From positions 1-8,362 of the forward strand of contig JAUVQC010000046.1 in assembly GCA_030598305.1 (NCBI GenBank): a stretch of DNA of 8,362 nt, in the 5' to 3' direction. The stretch is from Actinomycetes bacterium. GTDB lineage: Bacteria; Actinomycetota; Acidimicrobiia; UBA5794. Under the pieces are notes generated by a model. The model did no database searches. It saw nothing but the letters and a program-made list of their open reading frames with translations, and was not told the DNA's origin. Positions 1 through 8,362 of this stretch are shown in pieces (the stretch's first letter is position 1; each line of letters begins with the position of its first letter). Position numbers and translations under genes: made by a program.

Positions 1-128
1 GCTTTGTCGCGGCGCTCGGCCTTCTTGACGCCGGCGTAGACCAGCGGCAGTTCCACGTTCTCGATCGCGGTGCTTCGCGGCAGCAGGTTGAACTTTTGGA
101 ACACGAACCCGATCCGGCGACTGCGAAT
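1..128 (-). other. Internal fragment of a MacB/LolD-type ABC transporter ATPase, in frame with glgA
   Basis: In the glgA reading frame the last 41 or so codons (residues about 319-359) read [17 protein letters not shown], then a [15 protein letters not shown] segment and a basic KKAERRDKA tail. This is the segment after Walker A in the ATPase of lipoprotein/macrolide exporters (LolD, MacB, FtsE relatives). It carries the Q-loop glutamine of FVFQ at bases 96-98 and the NLLP...T..ENVELPL pattern. Nothing in glycogen synthases looks like this. Walker A is absent upstream, and the LSGGQ signature, Walker B and H-loop would lie beyond the window edge. Codons here are strongly G/C-ending (about 36 of 41) compared with 22 of 41 just before. 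The exact boundary is uncertain because GEQALI (bases 126-143) could fit either family. Confidence 0.85.
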
Positions 129-1079
129 GAGTGCCTGCTCACCGGATCCGAGGATCGCCAGTCGGAAGGGTGTTGTAACGGCAAATCGAGTCGCCTCGAG
201 TGCAAGGTCGATTCCCTTCTGTTCGACGAGACGTGACACAATCCCAACGACCGGCACATCGGTGTCCTCCCATCCGACCGCTTCGAGCAGCGCCGCACGA
301 CATACGGCCTTTCCCGCGAGATCATCCGCGGTGTAGCGGTGTGCGATGTATCCGTCCTTGGAGGGATCCCAAATGCTGGTGTCTATGCCGTTTCGTATAC
401 CCACCAAGCGGTCCCCAAGCGCCGTGAGCTGATCATGCAGTCCGAAGCCCGTCTCTTCTCGTCGGATCTCCTTGGCGTAGTTCGGACTCACCGCGATCAC
501 GATGTCTGCAAGTTGGATCCCGCCAGCCATCGGGTTGGTACCGCCATGGGACTCGAACGCCGGACTGTGTTTCGGGATCCTGTCGAGCCACCCACCCGAT
601 GTCCAGCCCTGATACCCGAGCGTGTGGATGGTCAGGACCTTGGGTAGCTCATCGTCCACGAATCCGAATGCGGCCGCAGTATGCCAATCGTTGCAGTGAA
701 GCACATCGGGTCGTCGCTCTCGAGCGAGAGAGGCAACGGTCGCCGAAAACCTGAAGAAACGATCGGCGTTGTCCGGCCATCCGTTTCCGTCTTCATCCAC
801 ATACGGGTTCGGTTTTGCGATTCCGGGCACATCTATGAGCGTGACCTCGCCGATCCCATCGGCGATACCTGTCCTGGCTTTCGCAGGCCCCGCCCACTTG
901 GGAACATCCAGATCGAGGGTGATCTCATCTCTGAGCGAGGTACGGAAGTAATCGGGTACTACGACCTCAACGTCGACGCCTTCGATTCGCAATGCCCTTA
1001 CAAGTCCAGCACTCGCCTCCGCCAGTCCCCCGACACGGGCGAGAGGAGCGAATTCAGCCGCTGCGAAGAGGACCTTCAT
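1..1079 (-). CDS. glgA: Glycogen/starch synthase-like GT5 glycosyltransferase, partial; its visible C-terminal end is replaced by ABC-ATPase sequence
   Basis: Residues 1 to about 314 read as a GlgA-type synthase, which transfers glucose from a nucleotide-glucose donor to the non-reducing end of an alpha-1,4-glucan in the cytoplasm. The N-terminus [19 protein letters not shown] matches the family donor-binding loop, but the usual lysine of K-x-G-G-L is Arg15. HCNDWHT lies at residues 128-134, an IHTLGYQG segment near 151-158, SRLVEQKG at 282-289 and LGSGE at 310-314. From about residue 315-319 the frame changes to ABC transporter ATPase sequence (separate entry), so the rest of the GT-B C-terminal domain, including the conserved catalytic glutamates, is not encoded here. 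Families usually run about 400-480 residues; 359 codons are visible, with no stop before the window edge. The ATG overlaps the glgX stop as ATGA, and an ACGGA sequence lies 8 nt upstream. The GT5 assignment is firm; activity of this exact product is doubtful. Confidence 0.85.
1076..1079 (-). other. ATGA stop/start overlap joining glgX and glgA
   Basis: On the minus strand the four bases ATGA hold the glgA ATG (1079-1077) and the glgX TGA stop (1078-1076). Such overlaps usually mean co-transcription, with ribosomes re-initiating from the upstream gene. That glgX and glgA lie in one operon follows directly; coupling itself is inferred. Confidence 0.9.
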
Positions 1080-3187
1080 GTGCTGATTCCGTTCCTCTTC
1101 CTGAGCAGAACCACCGACCATCCCTCCACCTCACCCGTCTCGGGCGCTTCAACGGGCAGCTCGGCACCAAGGCCCATGGCTGAGTACAACATGATCTCCC
1201 ATTCAAGCCCAACGAGATCTTCAGGCATAGTGAAGTGGACACGATCGGAGTGTGCGTTGAAGAGGACGAGGAAGCTGTCGTCGATCACCCTCTCGCCATG
1301 CTCATCGGTGGTGGGGATCTCGTTCCCGTTGAGGTACACGGCGAGTGACTTCGCATACCCCCGGCGCCACGCCTCCTCGGACATCTCTGACCCGTCCGTG
1401 TTGTACCAACCAACGTCGTGTCGTTCGGAGCCGGTGACGCTTCTGCCCTCGAACCATCGGCGACGCCTGAAGACAGGATGGTTCCTTCTGAGGCGGATCA
1501 GCTCCCTCGTGTACGCGAGCAGTTCCTCGTCGGCGTCCTCCCAGTCGTACCACGAGATCTCGTTGTCCTGGCAATAGGCGTTGTTGTTGCCCTGTTGCGT
1601 GCGCCCGATCTCGTCACCGCCGAGCAGCATCGGTACACCCTGGGAGAGCAGAAGGGTGGTGAGCATTGCTCGCACGCGACGCTGTCGGAGCCTGACGACC
1701 TCTTCGACATCGGTGGGACCTTCGACGCCCGAGTTCCAGGAGCGGTTGTTGCTGTCTCCGTCCCGGTTCCCCTCACCATTCGCGTCGTTGTGCTTGTGGT
1801 CGTAGGACACGAGGTCATTGAGGGTGAAGCCGTCGTGCGATGTGATGAAATTGATCGACGCGAGGGGGCGTCTACCGGCGAAACCATAGAGATCTGAACT
1901 CCCGGTGAAACGCCACGCGAAGTCTGCAAGTGTCCACTCCTCGCCACGCCAGTAGTCACGTACGCCGTCGCGGTACTTGTCGTTCCACTCGCTCCACAAT
2001 GTCGGGAAATGGCCGAGCCGATATCCCCCAGGGGCAGCATCCCAAGGTTCGGCGATCAGCTTCACCCGGCTGACGATGGGGTCCTGATGGATGAGGTCGA
2101 GGAACGCCGACTTCCTCCCGTCGGGGAGATCACGCGTGAGTGCAGGCGCAAGATCGAACCGGAACCCGTCAATGTGCATCTCCTCCACCCAATACCGGAG
2201 ACTGTCCATGATCAGCTTGAGAACCTGTGTATGTCCCACATTGAGGGAGTTGCCGCAGCCCGTGAGATCGATGAACCTGGCCTCGTTGTCAGGGTCGAGG
2301 CGGTAGTAGGTCCGATTGTCAATCCCCCGGAAGGAGAGCGACGGTCCGAGGGCGCCCTCCTCGGCCGTGTGGTTGTACACAACATCGAGGATCACCTCAA
2401 TTCCCGCATCGTGAAACGTCTTCACGAGCGTCTTGAACTCAATGACCTGTTCACCACGGCTTCCGGATGCCGAGTACGGCCCGTGTGGGGCGAAGAAACC
2501 AATTGTTGAGTACCCCCAATAGTTCTCCGTGCCTCGCGTCGCCAACGAGTGCTCGGAGACGAAGTGGTGGATGGGTTGTAGCTCCACCGCTGTGATGCCG
2601 AGTCGGACGAGATGATCGACAACCGGTGTGCTCGCCATACCAGCGTACGTTCCACGGAGTCCTGGAGGGACCTCGGGATGGAGCATTGAGATTCCCCTCA
2701 CATGCGTCTCGTAGATGATCGACTCGAACAGAGGGCGACGCTGTGCAACGTCATCACCCCAATCAAACGAATCGTCAACAACGATGGAACGGGGCATGGC
2801 CGACGCACTGTCGCGTTCGTCGCGGTGGTTGCTCTGGTCCGGCTGGTACGGGAGCACGACATCAGAGGCCGAGACGTCTCCCTCGATCGCTCTGGCGTAC
2901 GGATCCATGAGTAACTTGTCCGGGTTGTGGAACATGCCGTCGTGGGGCGCCCACGGACCGTGAACCCGGTAGCCGTACCGGTGCCCGGGATGGATGTCCG
3001 GGACGTAACCGTGGTGAACGAAACCCGTTACCTCAGGCAACCGGAGGCGTGTCTCGAATCCGAGATGATCAAAAAGACACACCTCGACTCGCTCGGCGTG
3101 CTCTGTATACACGGCAAAGTTGGTTCCAGATCCATCCCAGGTCGCTCCTTGCGGATCGGACCTGCCGGGCCATATCAGTGCGGTCAA
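1076..3187 (-). CDS. glgX: Glycogen debranching enzyme GlgX (GH13, isoamylase-type)
   Basis: The enzyme hydrolyses alpha-1,6 branch points of phosphorylase-limited glycogen and releases short malto-oligosaccharides. With the TTG start at 3187 the product is 703 residues, the usual length, and begins [18 protein letters not shown], where family members start. An N-terminal CBM48 module (about residues 10-110) precedes the GH13 barrel. All GH13 regions are present: region I DVVYNHT (about 268-274), region II DGFRFD with nucleophile Asp345, region III LIAEPWD with acid/base Glu380, and region [10 protein letters not shown] with Asp452. [20 protein letters not shown] (about 524-543) is a GlgX/TreX hallmark. 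A C-terminal beta domain follows. An in-frame ATG at 3295 would add 36 residues lying wholly inside glgP and matching no GlgX N-terminus, so I reject it. The upstream signal is weak (GGGAAA at 3190-3195), so initiation probably depends on translation of glgP. Confidence 0.96.
3184..3187 (-). other. TTGA stop/start overlap joining glgP and glgX
   Basis: On the minus strand TTGA contains the glgX start TTG (3187-3185) and the glgP stop TGA (3186-3184). It is the counterpart of the ATGA overlap downstream and explains why no ATG is found near the homologous N-terminus of GlgX. The start is inferred from family alignment and spacing, not proven. Confidence 0.75.
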
Positions 3188-5169
3188 GATTTCCCGTCTG
3201 GTCGATAGAGACGCTTGTCGTATTCGTCGACCATTCTGGCTGCTGAGACGAACGGACCGAGGGACTTCCAGTTGTGTCTGACCTTCTCCAGCCAACGGGC
3301 GCTCGGGGTGACTGAGTCGTCATAGAACAACGGGATGATCTCGTCTGTCAGGATTCGATAGAGCGACTCTGCCTCCTCGGTGTCTCGAACATCCGGGTTG
3401 TCGGCTTCAGAGGTCTCCACGCTCCATCCGTTCTCACCGTCGTAGCACTCGTCCCACCAACCGTCCTGTATCGAGAAGTTGAGACCACCATTGAGTGCAG
3501 CCTTCTCTCCGCTCGTTCCGCACGCCTCGTTGGGACGAATGGGATTGTTGAGCCAAACATCACAGCCGGCATACATCGCTCGGGCAACAGACATCTCGTA
3601 ATCGGGAAGGAACACGAAGCGACCGTTGGCAGCCTCGGAAAGACTGAAGCTGACCACACGATGAAGCACACCTTTGCCAGCCTCATCGGCTGGATGAGCC
3701 TTTCCTGCGAACACGAACTGCACCGGCCGGTTGTCGTCGGAGAGCAAAACGGCCAGCCGGTCGATGTTCTTGAGCAATAGGTCCGCCCGTTTGTAGGTGG
3801 CGAATCGCCGCGCAAACCCGATGGTGAGCACGTTCGGATCGAGACGATGGTGCGGTCCGACGCGCGCCTTCACGAGATCGATAAGGGACTGACGGCCCGA
3901 TGAGCGGATCGTTCTGATTCGCTCATCATCGATTCGGTCGACACCGTCCCACGTCTCGCGGACGCCAGAACCCCAGTCGTCCCCCATTGCATCCTCGAAT
4001 GCCTCCTGGAGGGGCGCGTGCACCCACGTAGCCGCATGCACACCGTTCGTGACGGATGTGATATCAGAGCCCCCGTATACGCCTGCGAACATCTCTCTGC
4101 TCACCTCGCCGTGGAGCTTTGATACACCGTTGGACCTGCCAGCAACACTGAGGCAGAACACAGCCATGTTGAACGTGTCATCCTCGCCCGGCATGTGTGC
4201 GAGCGAGCACAGTTCATCGGTCGACACGCCGTGACGTTCGGACCATACGCCGATATACCTCTTCATGAGATCGTGAGCGAAGCGATCGATTCCGGCAGGA
4301 ACGGGTGTGTGCGTCGTGAATACGATTCGGGGTCGCACTGCCTCGAGTGCCTCGGCAAGGGACTTGCCGGTGTCGAGCTCCTCACCGAGGAGCTCGAGGG
4401 CCAGGAATCCGGCGTGGCCTTCGTTGAGATGGTAGACGGATGGGTTGTACCCGAGTTGACGCAGGGCGCGCACGCCACCAATCCCCATGAGCAACTCCTG
4501 GCGCATTCGATGCTCGCGGTCGCCCCCGTAGAGTCGATCCGAGACCTTGCGCCCTCTCAAGTCGTTGAGTTCGATATCGTCGGTATCGAGAAGATAGAGC
4601 TTCGTCCGACCGACATCAGCACGCCACACGCGCGCCTTGACGATCCGGTCATCCATGACGATGTCAACAATCACTCCCATCTGCTCGAGGCCGAGCGACC
4701 GTGGATCGTGGCGCTCGTAGTGCTCGCGCTGGCGTTGGTTCGCGATCGATTGATGGAAGAAGCCATCCCGGTAGAACAGTCCAAGAGCCACGAGAGGCAG
4801 ATCGAGATCACTCGCAGCCTTCAGGTGATCGCCAGCGAGGATTCCGAGGCCTCCGGAATACTGGGGGAGCTTCTCGGAGACTCCGAACTCAGGGGAGAAG
4901 TATGCGATTTCCGCGTTGGGCAGGCGCTCAGGTACCGGAACGCGAGCCACTGCCTCGGCTGCCATTGCAGTGAAGGCGCGGTCATCGAGGTAGCGGTCGT
5001 AGTCCGCATCCGTGAACGCCTTCACCCGCAGTCGTGGGTGAAGTTTCGCCGTTGTATCTGGAAACCTACGGAAGAGATCCTGGCTGTGGCGGTCCCAGGT
5101 CCACGAGTAGTTGCTGGTGACAGCGATGAGGTTCGCCTCGAGCTCAGAGCGCGTCGTCTGTTCAGTCAC
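3184..5169 (-). CDS. glgP: Alpha-glucan (glycogen/maltodextrin) phosphorylase, short GT35 type
   Basis: The enzyme cleaves terminal alpha-1,4 glucosyl units with phosphate to give glucose-1-phosphate, using pyridoxal phosphate. At 661 residues it belongs to the short bacterial/archaeal alpha-glucan phosphorylases rather than the roughly 800-residue E. coli/animal type. Residues 8-75 (SNYSWTWDRHSQDLFRRFP region) resemble the DUF3417-like N-terminal domain of that group. Next come YFSPEFGVSEKLPQYSGGLG (90-109), GDHLKAASDL (113-122), HLNEGHAGF (247-255), GFARRFATYKRADLL (451-465), and the PLP-lysine segment GTSGEKAALNGGLN (551-564), with Lys556 the likely Schiff-base lysine. Glu555 stands where many relatives have Met. 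The start is GTG at 5169, supported by AAGGAT upstream and by the N-terminal match; the nearby ATG overlaps it out of frame and meets a stop at once. It is the second gene of the operon, after malQ, and overlaps glgX. Confidence 0.95.
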   Translation of the reverse strand: MTEQTTRSELEANLIAVTSNYSWTWDRHSQDLFRRFPDTTAKLHPRLRVKAFTDADYDRYLDDRAFTAMAAEAVARVPVPERLPNAEIAYFSPEFGVSEKLPQYSGGLGILAGDHLKAASDLDLPLVALGLFYRDGFFHQSIANQRQREHYERHDPRSLGLEQMGVIVDIVMDDRIVKARVWRADVGRTKLYLLDTDDIELNDLRGRKVSDRLYGGDREHRMRQELLMGIGGVRALRQLGYNPSVYHLNEGHAGFLALELLGEELDTGKSLAEALEAVRPRIVFTTHTPVPAGIDRFAHDLMKRYIGVWSERHGVSTDELCSLAHMPGEDDTFNMAVFCLSVAGRSNGVSKLHGEVSREMFAGVYGGSDITSVTNGVHAATWVHAPLQEAFEDAMGDDWGSGVRETWDGVDRIDDERIRTIRSSGRQSLIDLVKARVGPHHRLDPNVLTIGFARRFATYKRADLLLKNIDRLAVLLSDDNRPVQFVFAGKAHPADEAGKGVLHRVVSFSLSEAANGRFVFLPDYEMSVARAMYAGCDVWLNNPIRPNEACGTSGEKAALNGGLNFSIQDGWWDECYDGENGWSVETSEADNPDVRDTEEAESLYRILTDEIIPLFYDDSVTPSARWLEKVRHNWKSLGPFVSAARMVDEYDKRLYRPDGKS

Positions 5170-5174
5170 ATTCG

Positions 5175-5180
5175 ATCCTT
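5175..5180 (-). promoter_or_regulatory. Shine-Dalgarno site of glgP
   Basis: AAGGAT on the minus strand lies 5 nt before the GTG at 5169-5167. It is the clearest ribosome binding site in the operon and fixes the GTG as the glgP start. Confidence 0.75.
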
Positions 5181-5203
5181 GGTACGAAGAAGCCTCAATG
5201 TTA

Positions 5204-5239
5204 CGCCTCAGCGTTCGGGTTCCAACAACCGCTCAGGCG
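5204..5239 (-). repeat. Imperfect inverted repeat in the malQ-glgP gap
   Basis: On the plus strand the arms are CGCCTCAGCG (5204-5213) and CGCTCAGGCG (5230-5239). They pair over 9 of 10 positions with one central mismatch and a 16-nt loop. In the minus-strand transcript the hairpin includes the malQ stop codon and sits about 35-70 nt before the glgP start. No run of T follows, so it is not a standard intrinsic terminator. It could stabilise or process the mRNA, or be chance. Confidence 0.35.
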
Positions 5240-7143
5240 TCCACGGCTGCACTGCGGATTGTGATGAGTTCCTTCAGCACGGTCATTATCTCGTCGTTCG
5301 CGGCGAGCTCATCCAGAGTGTGCTCATGTCGAATCCGCCAGTTCGGACGTTCCCAATCTGTGCCCGGGATGTTCTGTCGTCGTTCTTCCATGAGCAGGTC
5401 GTCCAGGTTGTAGAGAGCAACGGCAGCCCGGGTGCCGGCCATCCACGACATCAGCGCGTCACGGGTTGCCTTCGGACTGTCCGTCCCGAATCGCTGCTGG
5501 AGCCGGGCGACCGCTTTCGCCCTCTCCTCTCGCTCACGACGACTCCGCTCTTCATCGAAGACACCCAGGTCCGCGAGGTCGTCGATGTCAAGGCCCTTCC
5601 ACCATGCTGGGAATGATGGTGTGTCATGGCTTGATAGGGCCACGAGGTCGGTGGATTTCGGTTCAGACTCTCCATCATTGGCCATGGCCATCCCGAGAAG
5701 CGCGTGCTCATCGAGTCCTGTACGGATCTCCGGTGGGACGGTGCCAAGATTCTCGCCGACGACACCTGCTTTGGCTCGCACGGACTCGATGCAGATGATC
5801 GCGAACATCTCCTCGGTCGGTTGACGAACGTATGCGCCCTGAGTGGCTCCCGAGCCGTGGGGTACCCACCACGTTCGATGGATTCCCATCACATGATCGA
5901 TGCGCAGCAGTCCGGCGACAGATAGCTGGCGACGGATCGCCTTGCGAAAGTTGAGATGTCCGTCGGCTCGTGCGAGCGGTGGAATGGTCGCCGGCAATCC
6001 CCAGTCCTGTCCTCCGGCGAAGAGTGTGTCGGGCGGAGCCCCGAGGCTCGCGAGGGCGAATTGGTCCGGGTTGTCCCAGATGTCATAACCGTCCGGGTGG
6101 CACCCGATAGGAAGGTCAAGGTACAGATACTGGCCCCGCTGCTCCAGCTCATCTGAGAGCGCTGTCAATTGCGTGTGCATCAGCCACTGAACGGTCTCGT
6201 GATAGGCCACTCGATCCGGGGACGGGGCAACGGTGGCGGACCATGCGCGCCAGTTCCGACCGGCGGCCTCAGCCATTGCGCGGAACTCCGCGTAGCGACG
6301 CATCTCCGGCTCGACGTCGAGGAAGGTATCCACCTCGACCCGCAGCCGGGGAGTCTCGGACACCTGGACCGTGTAGTGCGCAAGGCTCGACCGGATCTCA
6401 TGACCGGCCGCTGCATAGTCGACCCAGAGATGGTCTCCCGGTGCCGTCGGGGGACCGTCCTGCCAACCGGGTACTGAGTGGAAGTCCACGAACAACTCGT
6501 TCCACGCACGCCGAGACGCCGGGGCATACGGCGAAGGCTGGTCATCGAATGTCGCTAGCAGTGGGAGCGTGCCGACGACGTCGACACCGACATCGTTGCA
6601 CATATCAGCGAACTGTCGTAGGTGCGTGATCGTCCCAACGCCGGCACCTCGAAACGCGGCGCGCATCGAGTAGGTCGGACTGATGAGTCCGGTGGCTCCG
6701 CGCGGCGTGGGATAGGCCTTTGTTGGCGCGGAGAAGATGTGCGAGGTGATGGCGCCGTGATTCAGGACGAGACGGTGATACCCGATGGGAAGTACTGCTG
6801 AGACGGTGAGGAACTGGTCGCCAATGCCGACAGGCACTTCGGAATCATCCTCGAGCACGATCGTCGCATCAACAACCGCGAATGCGACGTTGATCGGTGC
6901 AAGATCACCATCCCATGCTACGAGCACGGGCTCGATTGGGGACCGGCCGCTGACGATCTGGTGCGCGGCGTCCTTCACTGCTCGTTCCGAGCCGAGCCGC
7001 AGGCCGGTGAGTGCGGACAGAACGGCGATCAGATCGTCCCGGGTAACCTGTTGGGTGATGTTCCATGCATCGACCCACTCCGTCAGCACACCGGCCTCGT
7101 GGGTGAGATTCATGATCGCTTTGGAGTGCTGACCTTCCACCAT
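5233..7143 (-). CDS. malQ: 4-alpha-glucanotransferase (amylomaltase, GH77)
   Basis: The enzyme moves 4-alpha-glucanosyl units between malto-oligosaccharides, freeing glucose and making chains long enough for GlgP. The 636-residue product has a non-catalytic N-terminal region (about 1-145), as in long E. coli/actinobacterial MalQ, then the GH77 barrel. Visible motifs are YLDLPIGCHPDGYDIWDNPD (341-360), GAPPDTLFAGGQDWGLP (368-384), LLRIDHVMGIHRTWWVP (412-428) with nucleophile Asp416, GENLGTVPPEI (463-473) with acid/base Glu464, SSHDTPS with the transition-state Asp507, and QNIPGTDWERPNWR near 590-603. The PIGCHPDGYDIW loop replaces the commoner P-x-x-V-x-x-D-S-A-x-x-W form and recalls actinobacterial MalQ. 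It is the first gene of the minus-strand operon and is followed by a 63-nt gap to glgP. The ATG at 7143 lacks a clear Shine-Dalgarno site; an ATG at residue 11 (7113-7111) is an alternative start, also without one. Confidence 0.95.
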   Translation of the reverse strand: MVEGQHSKAIMNLTHEAGVLTEWVDAWNITQQVTRDDLIAVLSALTGLRLGSERAVKDAAHQIVSGRSPIEPVLVAWDGDLAPINVAFAVVDATIVLEDDSEVPVGIGDQFLTVSAVLPIGYHRLVLNHGAITSHIFSAPTKAYPTPRGATGLISPTYSMRAAFRGAGVGTITHLRQFADMCNDVGVDVVGTLPLLATFDDQPSPYAPASRRAWNELFVDFHSVPGWQDGPPTAPGDHLWVDYAAAGHEIRSSLAHYTVQVSETPRLRVEVDTFLDVEPEMRRYAEFRAMAEAAGRNWRAWSATVAPSPDRVAYHETVQWLMHTQLTALSDELEQRGQYLYLDLPIGCHPDGYDIWDNPDQFALASLGAPPDTLFAGGQDWGLPATIPPLARADGHLNFRKAIRRQLSVAGLLRIDHVMGIHRTWWVPHGSGATQGAYVRQPTEEMFAIICIESVRAKAGVVGENLGTVPPEIRTGLDEHALLGMAMANDGESEPKSTDLVALSSHDTPSFPAWWKGLDIDDLADLGVFDEERSRREREERAKAVARLQQRFGTDSPKATRDALMSWMAGTRAAVALYNLDDLLMEERRQNIPGTDWERPNWRIRHEHTLDELAANDEIMTVLKELITIRSAAVDA

Positions 7144-7149
7144 GCCCGC

Positions 7150-7155
7150 ATTATC
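7150..7155 (-). promoter_or_regulatory. Candidate -10 element for malQ, suggesting a leaderless transcript
   Basis: GATAAT on the minus strand matches the TATAAT consensus at five of six positions and ends 6 nt before the malQ ATG at 7143. Transcription would then begin at or next to the A of the ATG, giving a leaderless mRNA. This agrees with the lack of a good Shine-Dalgarno site for this start. The -35 position (around 7173-7179, TTCGGT-like) is poor, so the call is tentative. Confidence 0.4.
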
Positions 7156-7218
7156 GCGTCACCGGGGTTCCCAACCGAAATGCTTCCGCACGCTCCGAAG
7201 GACTCACCTAGGCTCATC

Positions 7219-7226
7219 GGGGGAGG
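7219..7226 (+). promoter_or_regulatory. Shine-Dalgarno site of the STAND ATPase gene
   Basis: GGGGGAGG ends 10 nt before the ATG at 7237. The spacing is slightly long but the purine tract is strong. It favours 7237 over the in-frame ATG at 7180, which has no such site. Confidence 0.6.
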
Positions 7227-7236
7227 CCTCGACTAC

Positions 7237-8362
7237 ATGATCCTTGAACGCGACGTGGAGCTTTCGCGGCTTGCGGAACTCGTCGATGACGTGGGGACGT
7301 CCGGCGGACGAGTCGTTCTTGTGCGCGGCGAGGCCGGAATAGGTAAGAGCACACTCATCAACCGATTCCTCACAGACATGAGCGGTCGGGCCCACACCCT
7401 CATGGGAGCATGTGACGACCTCCTCACACCCCAACCGCTCGGCCCGATCTGGGATATTGCCAGGGACGAGACCTCCCTCGCCCAGCCTCTGACAGACGGT
7501 GACCGCAGAGCGGTCATGGAATCGGTCCTCGACCTGTTGTCGCGATCTCTTCGCCCAACAGTCATGGTTCTTGAGGACACGCAGTGGGCAGATGAGGCGA
7601 CCCTCGACCTGATCAAGTTTCTGGGAAGACGCATCGCACGAACCAACGCATTGCTGGTTCTCACATTCAGGGATGCAGAGGTTGACGCGGATCACCCTCT
7701 GCGGCTGGTCATCGGTGAACTCCCGACCCAGAACATCGTTCGAATGCCGCTGACGCGGCTGACAGCGGGAGCTGTGAGGTTGATGGTGCAGCAAGAATCC
7801 TTCGACGTTGACGAAGTACTGGCTCTGACGGGCGGAAATCCGCTGTTCGTCACCGAGGTTGTGGCATCCGGTACCGATGGCGTACCCATCTCTGTCCGAG
7901 AATCTGTGCTCGCGAGAGCCGCGAAACTCTCTCCAGAGGCACGGCGCATCCTGGACCTCGTATCCGTGGCTCCGGGTGAAATTGAGAGGGATCTCGTCGA
8001 CAAGATCAGCTACCCAACAGCCGAACAACTCGCTGAGGCTGTGCGCCAGGGGCTAATGCGTATCGACAGCGACGCCCTCTCGTTCCCTCATGATCTCCAG
8101 AGGCAGGCAATCGAGCGCTCCCTCAGCACGACCGAGCGACACGATCTCAACCACCAGGTACTGAAGGCTTTGGGCGAATCAGCGAATCCAGCGAGACTCG
8201 TGCATCATGCCCGGGGAGCAAACGACGTCGACGCAATCGTTGCTTTCGCCCCGAGAGCCGCCAGAACGGCGATGGCAATCCAAAGCACCGCAGAGGCTGT
8301 CGCTCACTTCCGAATACTCGAGCCATTGCTCGATCGTGTGAAGATCGACGAGCGCGCGGCGA
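7237..8362 (+). CDS. STAND/AAA-type ATPase, N-terminal part of a probable large LuxR (LAL/MalT-like) transcriptional regulator
   Basis: The frame is open from ATG 7237 to the window edge (375 codons, no stop). The N-terminus MILERDVELSRLAELVDDVG has the form typical of large ATP-binding LuxR-family regulators. It is followed by Walker A GEAGIGKST (residues 31-39), Walker B VMVLEDTQWAD (109-119), a sensor-like LTFRD (142-146), the STAND motif GGNPLFVTE (199-207) and VPISVRESVLARA (216-228). Later residues form alpha-helical sequence like the winged-helix and TPR-type regions of these proteins. Full-length relatives are roughly 900-1000 residues and end in a LuxR helix-turn-helix, which would lie outside the window. 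Without that end, a kinase- or cyclase-linked ATPase remains possible. Its divergent position next to a maltodextrin operon makes it a candidate local regulator, by analogy with MalT. No signal peptide or membrane segment is seen, so it is cytoplasmic. Confidence 0.85.
   Translation, partial: MILERDVELSRLAELVDDVGTSGGRVVLVRGEAGIGKSTLINRFLTDMSGRAHTLMGACDDLLTPQPLGPIWDIARDETSLAQPLTDGDRRAVMESVLDLLSRSLRPTVMVLEDTQWADEATLDLIKFLGRRIARTNALLVLTFRDAEVDADHPLRLVIGELPTQNIVRMPLTRLTAGAVRLMVQQESFDVDEVLALTGGNPLFVTEVVASGTDGVPISVRESVLARAAKLSPEARRILDLVSVAPGEIERDLVDKISYPTAEQLAEAVRQGLMRIDSDALSFPHDLQRQAIERSLSTTERHDLNHQVLKALGESANPARLVHHARGANDVDAIVAFAPRAARTAMAIQSTAEAVAHFRILEPLLDRVKIDERAA

Follow-up and report, generated by a model that had tools for sequence, protein, structure and literature searches.

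The window analysed here, a stretch of 8,362 nucleotides of DNA, contains at its left end an open frame that begins as a GT5 glycogen synthase (GlgA) and ends as the ATPase of an ABC transporter. The join between the two is very probably artificial, a chimera at what is presumed to be a metagenomic contig end, and the GlgA–ABC frame is most likely neither a real biological feature nor a new protein. An assembly chimera had been put forward as the simplest explanation in an earlier, sequence-only reading of this DNA, and it is now the best supported one, because both halves match complete, unfused families, collinearity with related loci breaks only near the window end, and no second example of the join was found among the matches listed. 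The genuine part would be a glycogen gene cluster of Acidimicrobiia-like type, in which glgA is expected to run on beyond base 137. The last ~135 bases would belong to an ABC-transporter ATPase gene unrelated to it, probably from a different organism in the sample. False in-frame fusions of this kind can result from a chimeric contig tip, and automatic annotation would enter them as new multidomain proteins.

The glycogen synthase and its gene cluster

The open frame comprises 373 codons (1121..3, minus strand) and continues off the window end. It is a GT5 glycogen synthase until approximately base 138. The TIGR02095 profile matches residues 15–331 over its positions 1–336 of 477 (E = 3.1e-75), PF08323 identifies the N-terminal GT5 domain (E = 2.2e-48), and a phmmer search of solved structures aligns the GlgA structure 3d1j as far as residue 331 (E = 4e-40). 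A complete C-terminal GT-B domain is absent from the frame; full-length GlgA relatives extend ~145 residues beyond the end of its match. The profile, structure and relative comparisons together define the 5′ two thirds of glgA (138..1079, minus strand), which starts at the Met (residue 15) and stops at residue 328, with the C-terminal part missing. The 120 protein matches listed include 13 complete synthases of 462–476 amino acids, which are 72–78% identical to the frame over 315–331 residues and align from residue 1 or 15 to residues 329–331; P0005 is a partial synthase. The frame is thus like GlgA in its fit to the profile and to these 13 full-length relatives, but differs from them in lacking the C-terminal third.

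Residue 15 is the second Met (MKVLF), from which the sequence-only reading had numbered its residues. The frame opens 14 codons ahead of it (1080–1121, minus strand). Nine of the 13 complete relatives start at this Met, while the remaining four (P0008, P0015, P0035 and P0048) have an extension of equal length, 14 residues.

Directly upstream of glgA lie glgX, an alpha-glucan phosphorylase gene (TIGR02094) and the 4-alpha-glucanotransferase gene malQ, together spanning 1076–7143 on the minus strand and collinear with the related locus L005 up to base 6809. Both profile and locus comparison mark glgX (1076..3295, minus strand), encoding the glycogen debranching protein, as a genuine neighbour of glgA. 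A divergent open frame at 6961–8361 (plus strand) carries an AAA_16 ATPase domain and runs off the right end of the window; it also partially matches the TOMM system kinase/cyclase model TIGR03903, scoring far under that model's cut-off. No tRNAs, and no Rfam families at gathering scores, were found in the window.

The related loci are mostly from Acidimicrobiia, and in nine close ones (L001–L009) the synthase was read past the position of the join. In eight of the nine it reaches its stop 460–475 residues from the start of the match. The frame of L002 as read meets an early stop before the Met; its sequence still continues normally through the join position. Homology to the collinear relatives breaks at the join: of seven close loci, four have DNA similarity starting at base 137 (L005, L006 and L009) or 139 (L001). 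For the other three the best DNA segment begins deeper in the window, at base 364 (L004), 381 (L002) or 460 (L003), but their synthases nevertheless run normally past the join position. L005 is collinear with window bases 137–6809 at 69.6% identity, and L001 with bases 139–5169 at 69.2%. Since the loci are collinear beyond the join zone, only the last ~135 bases of the window are out of place. The ABC-type tail has no match in 80 related loci at E ≤ 0.01.

The ATPase tail and the position of the join

Within residues 321–373 the frame matches the ABC ATPase models DarD, MacB, YbbA and LolD, with a best E value of 8.7e-9. When the 48-residue tail is cut out alone it matches NF038007 at E = 3.9e-10, as well as the MacB and LolD models, in the Q-loop region; because the isolated tail reaches this value, its identity as ABC sequence is not a matter of chance. 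The tail alone also finds the ABC structure 5xu1 (phmmer, E = 9.1e-11), while its Pfam match is weak (PF00005, E = 0.22, under the curated cut-off). It is 87.5% identical over 48 residues to P0002, an ordinary ABC ATPase of 258 amino acids, and 83.3% identical over 48 residues to P0003 (242 amino acids), the alignment falling in the middle of both proteins (residues 78–125 of P0002). The frame contains no Walker A motif, that of P0002 lying earlier than the aligned section. From the profile, structure and P0002 comparisons the tail (3..134, minus strand) is an internal fragment of a LolD/MacB-type ATPase that runs off the window end. It is like the LolD/MacB/YbbA-type ABC transporter ATPases (PF00005) in fitting their Q-loop region, but differs in having no Walker A and nothing downstream, since the window ends. 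The window ends at base 1 (1..1), ahead of any ABC signature or Walker B, and this end is assumed to be a contig end.

The change from synthase to ATPase occurs within bases 140–129 (minus strand), with no stop and no frameshift. In a three-way comparison the residues up to 328 follow P0001, the nearest synthase, and those from 330 follow P0002, the nearest ATPase, so the switch lies at codons 328–330 (bases 140–132). DNA and protein comparisons place the end of GlgA similarity and the start of ABC similarity in a join zone of codons 328–331 (EQAL, ~129..140, minus strand). Approached from the other side, ABC-type DNA similarity ends at bases 119–125 in the plasmid collection (six records listed of 28) and at bases 113, 125 and 129 in three records of the phage collection. 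GC content shows no clear shift across the join, and there are no direct or inverted repeats of at least 18 bases at it. Two weak families of direct repeats occur elsewhere in the window.

The sequence-only reading had described a frame that passes from GlgA into an ABC ATPase uninterrupted by a stop or frameshift, both domains being incomplete. The profiles, structures and nearest-protein comparison bear this out, the synthase ending at about position 336 of 477 in its profile and the ATPase lacking Walker A. It had also proposed searching the two halves separately; each matches complete unfused relatives, the synthases of 462–476 amino acids and the ATPase of 258.

The class to which the window belongs offers no close counterpart of the tail among the matches listed. 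ABC matches in eight related genomes reach at most 65% identity, that one over 23 residues, and those listed for the class genomes reach at most 67%, versus 83–88% for P0002 and P0003. This greater closeness to P0002 and P0003 suggests, at the level of protein similarity, that the tail derives from another source organism than the window's lineage. The named relatives of P0002 are few and of mixed lineages (Geminicoccaceae, Gammaproteobacteria and Methylomirabilota). The tail protein has matches in 668 records of the plasmid collection, of which 64 are 60–80% identical and 604 less so, the best listed being from Sinorhizobium meliloti (79.5% over 81% of the tail); the ATPase motif is widespread, and these matches therefore do not name the source. 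Bases 1–1121 match three short unannotated records of the phage collection, only within bases 36–129. The whole window matches 107 plasmid records, of which the five listed match only glgX (bases 1524–2413).

Search for the same fusion elsewhere

A protein query spanning the join (residues 282–373) was compared with 5.8 billion proteins. The candidates were those sharing most words with the query at 0.55–1.75 times its length, a range that a far longer or shorter fusion would escape; 7,999 were scored, 7,262 reached the threshold and the best 120 are listed. The best 120 of the 7,262 contain no GlgA–ABC fusion. The top match, at 78 bits, spans 54% of the query; this counts against a fusion, because a true one would be expected to align with both halves and to head the list. 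Three listed proteins with 96% cover (P0012, P0045 and P0073) are not fusions; they are ABC ATPases of 220–235 amino acids at 39–41% identity.

A survey of 296 genomes from the class that includes genome G005, 274 of which had a match, likewise gave no fusion among the matches listed. There the synthase-type matches end at or before residue 338 and the ABC-type matches start at or after residue 314. The occurrence of the same fusion in independent genomes, which the sequence-only reading had named as evidence against a mis-join, was thus found neither among the listed matches of the 296 class genomes nor in the best 120 of the 7,262 proteins. The exact 38-base join sequence has no match in viral contigs. 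A search of the literature found nothing treating a glycogen synthase–ABC transporter gene fusion together with misassembly.

Origin of the join

Certain properties of the join run against an artificial chimera. It keeps both frame and strand, which would happen by chance in about one case in six, there is no clear GC shift, and the nearest synthases are at most 78% identical to the window frame. The first two properties would be natural if a genuine recent deletion or recombination, private to the sampled Acidimicrobiia-like population, had fused glgA with an ABC-exporter gene possibly acquired from another lineage, inactivating both. Short runs of residues common at the join also favour such an event, ABC proteins P0018 and P0080 having GEQAALR and the L004 synthase GSGEQRL. 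Against it, the breakpoint would lie only ~135 bases from the contig end by coincidence, if the window end is the contig end. The join is moreover absent from the listed relatives and proteins, it has no direct or inverted repeat of at least 18 bases, and the tail is less like the listed class ABC proteins than like P0002. We consider this origin unlikely. If the join were nevertheless real, it would mean that glycogen synthase has been lost at strain level, and not that a new kind of protein has arisen.

The sequence shared by the two families at the join bears on how a chimera may have formed. All of 14 GlgA proteins have S326 and G327, with S or A at position 332; at position 330, 13 have W and one has G. 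Of 223 ABC proteins, 206 carry D at position 327 and two carry G, 218 carry A at position 330, and all carry R333. SGEQ at 326–329 is found in none of the 223, the closest being EGEQ in P0018 and P0080. Because residues 326–330 differ between GlgA and ABC proteins, the exact run common to both parents is probably ~9–13 nt, a bound that is not strict as it comes from relatives and not from the parent genes. Common assemblers use k of 21 or more.

Repeat-induced k-mer joins are a usual cause of misjoins, and here a de Bruijn assembler would have joined the two genes at a long exact repeat common to both. The lack of SGEQ in the 223 ABC proteins argues against this, as does the contrast at residue 330 between W or G in the 14 synthases and A in 218 of the 223 ABC proteins. 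With a shared run probably shorter than k, as estimated from relatives of the parent genes, such a join is very improbable. The short run would therefore speak less for a k-mer join than for a read or molecule that is itself chimeric, or for an erroneous extension of the contig end.

An artificial chimera would most likely have arisen in one of two ways: as a chimeric library molecule or read, formed by template switching at a short shared stretch or by ligation, that was retained as the contig tip, or through a wrong last extension by the assembler at the contig end. Work on viral data provides parallels: misassembled contig ends arising from chimeric contigs or PCR-chimeric reads in viral metagenomes (PMC4270193), contig ends that are wrongly extended (PMC7953547) and the ways in which chimeric reads affect assembly (PMC5015205). 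The likeness to the misassembled ends described in PMC4270193 is a short foreign tail at an apparent contig end with no second instance found among the matches listed; the difference is that those ends come from viral metagenomes.

A real, expressed GlgA–ABC fusion protein that does something new, such as coupling glycogen synthesis to transport, would account for the open frame through the join, but is the least likely origin of all and is rejected, as the C-terminal part of the synthase and the Walker A motif of the ATPase are both missing and no second example occurs among the listed protein (best 120 of 7,262) or class matches.

Some glgA matches in other genomes have unusual frames of their own. 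In a related MAG the match at L103 (G008:C17:31710-32675) has one TGA read through, inside the match or at its edge. A few glgA matches in the class, including that at G279:C2:12377-13366, lie in over-long stop-to-stop frames of up to 1199 amino acids; these may be further fusions, or no more than the long open frames that GC-rich DNA can contain.
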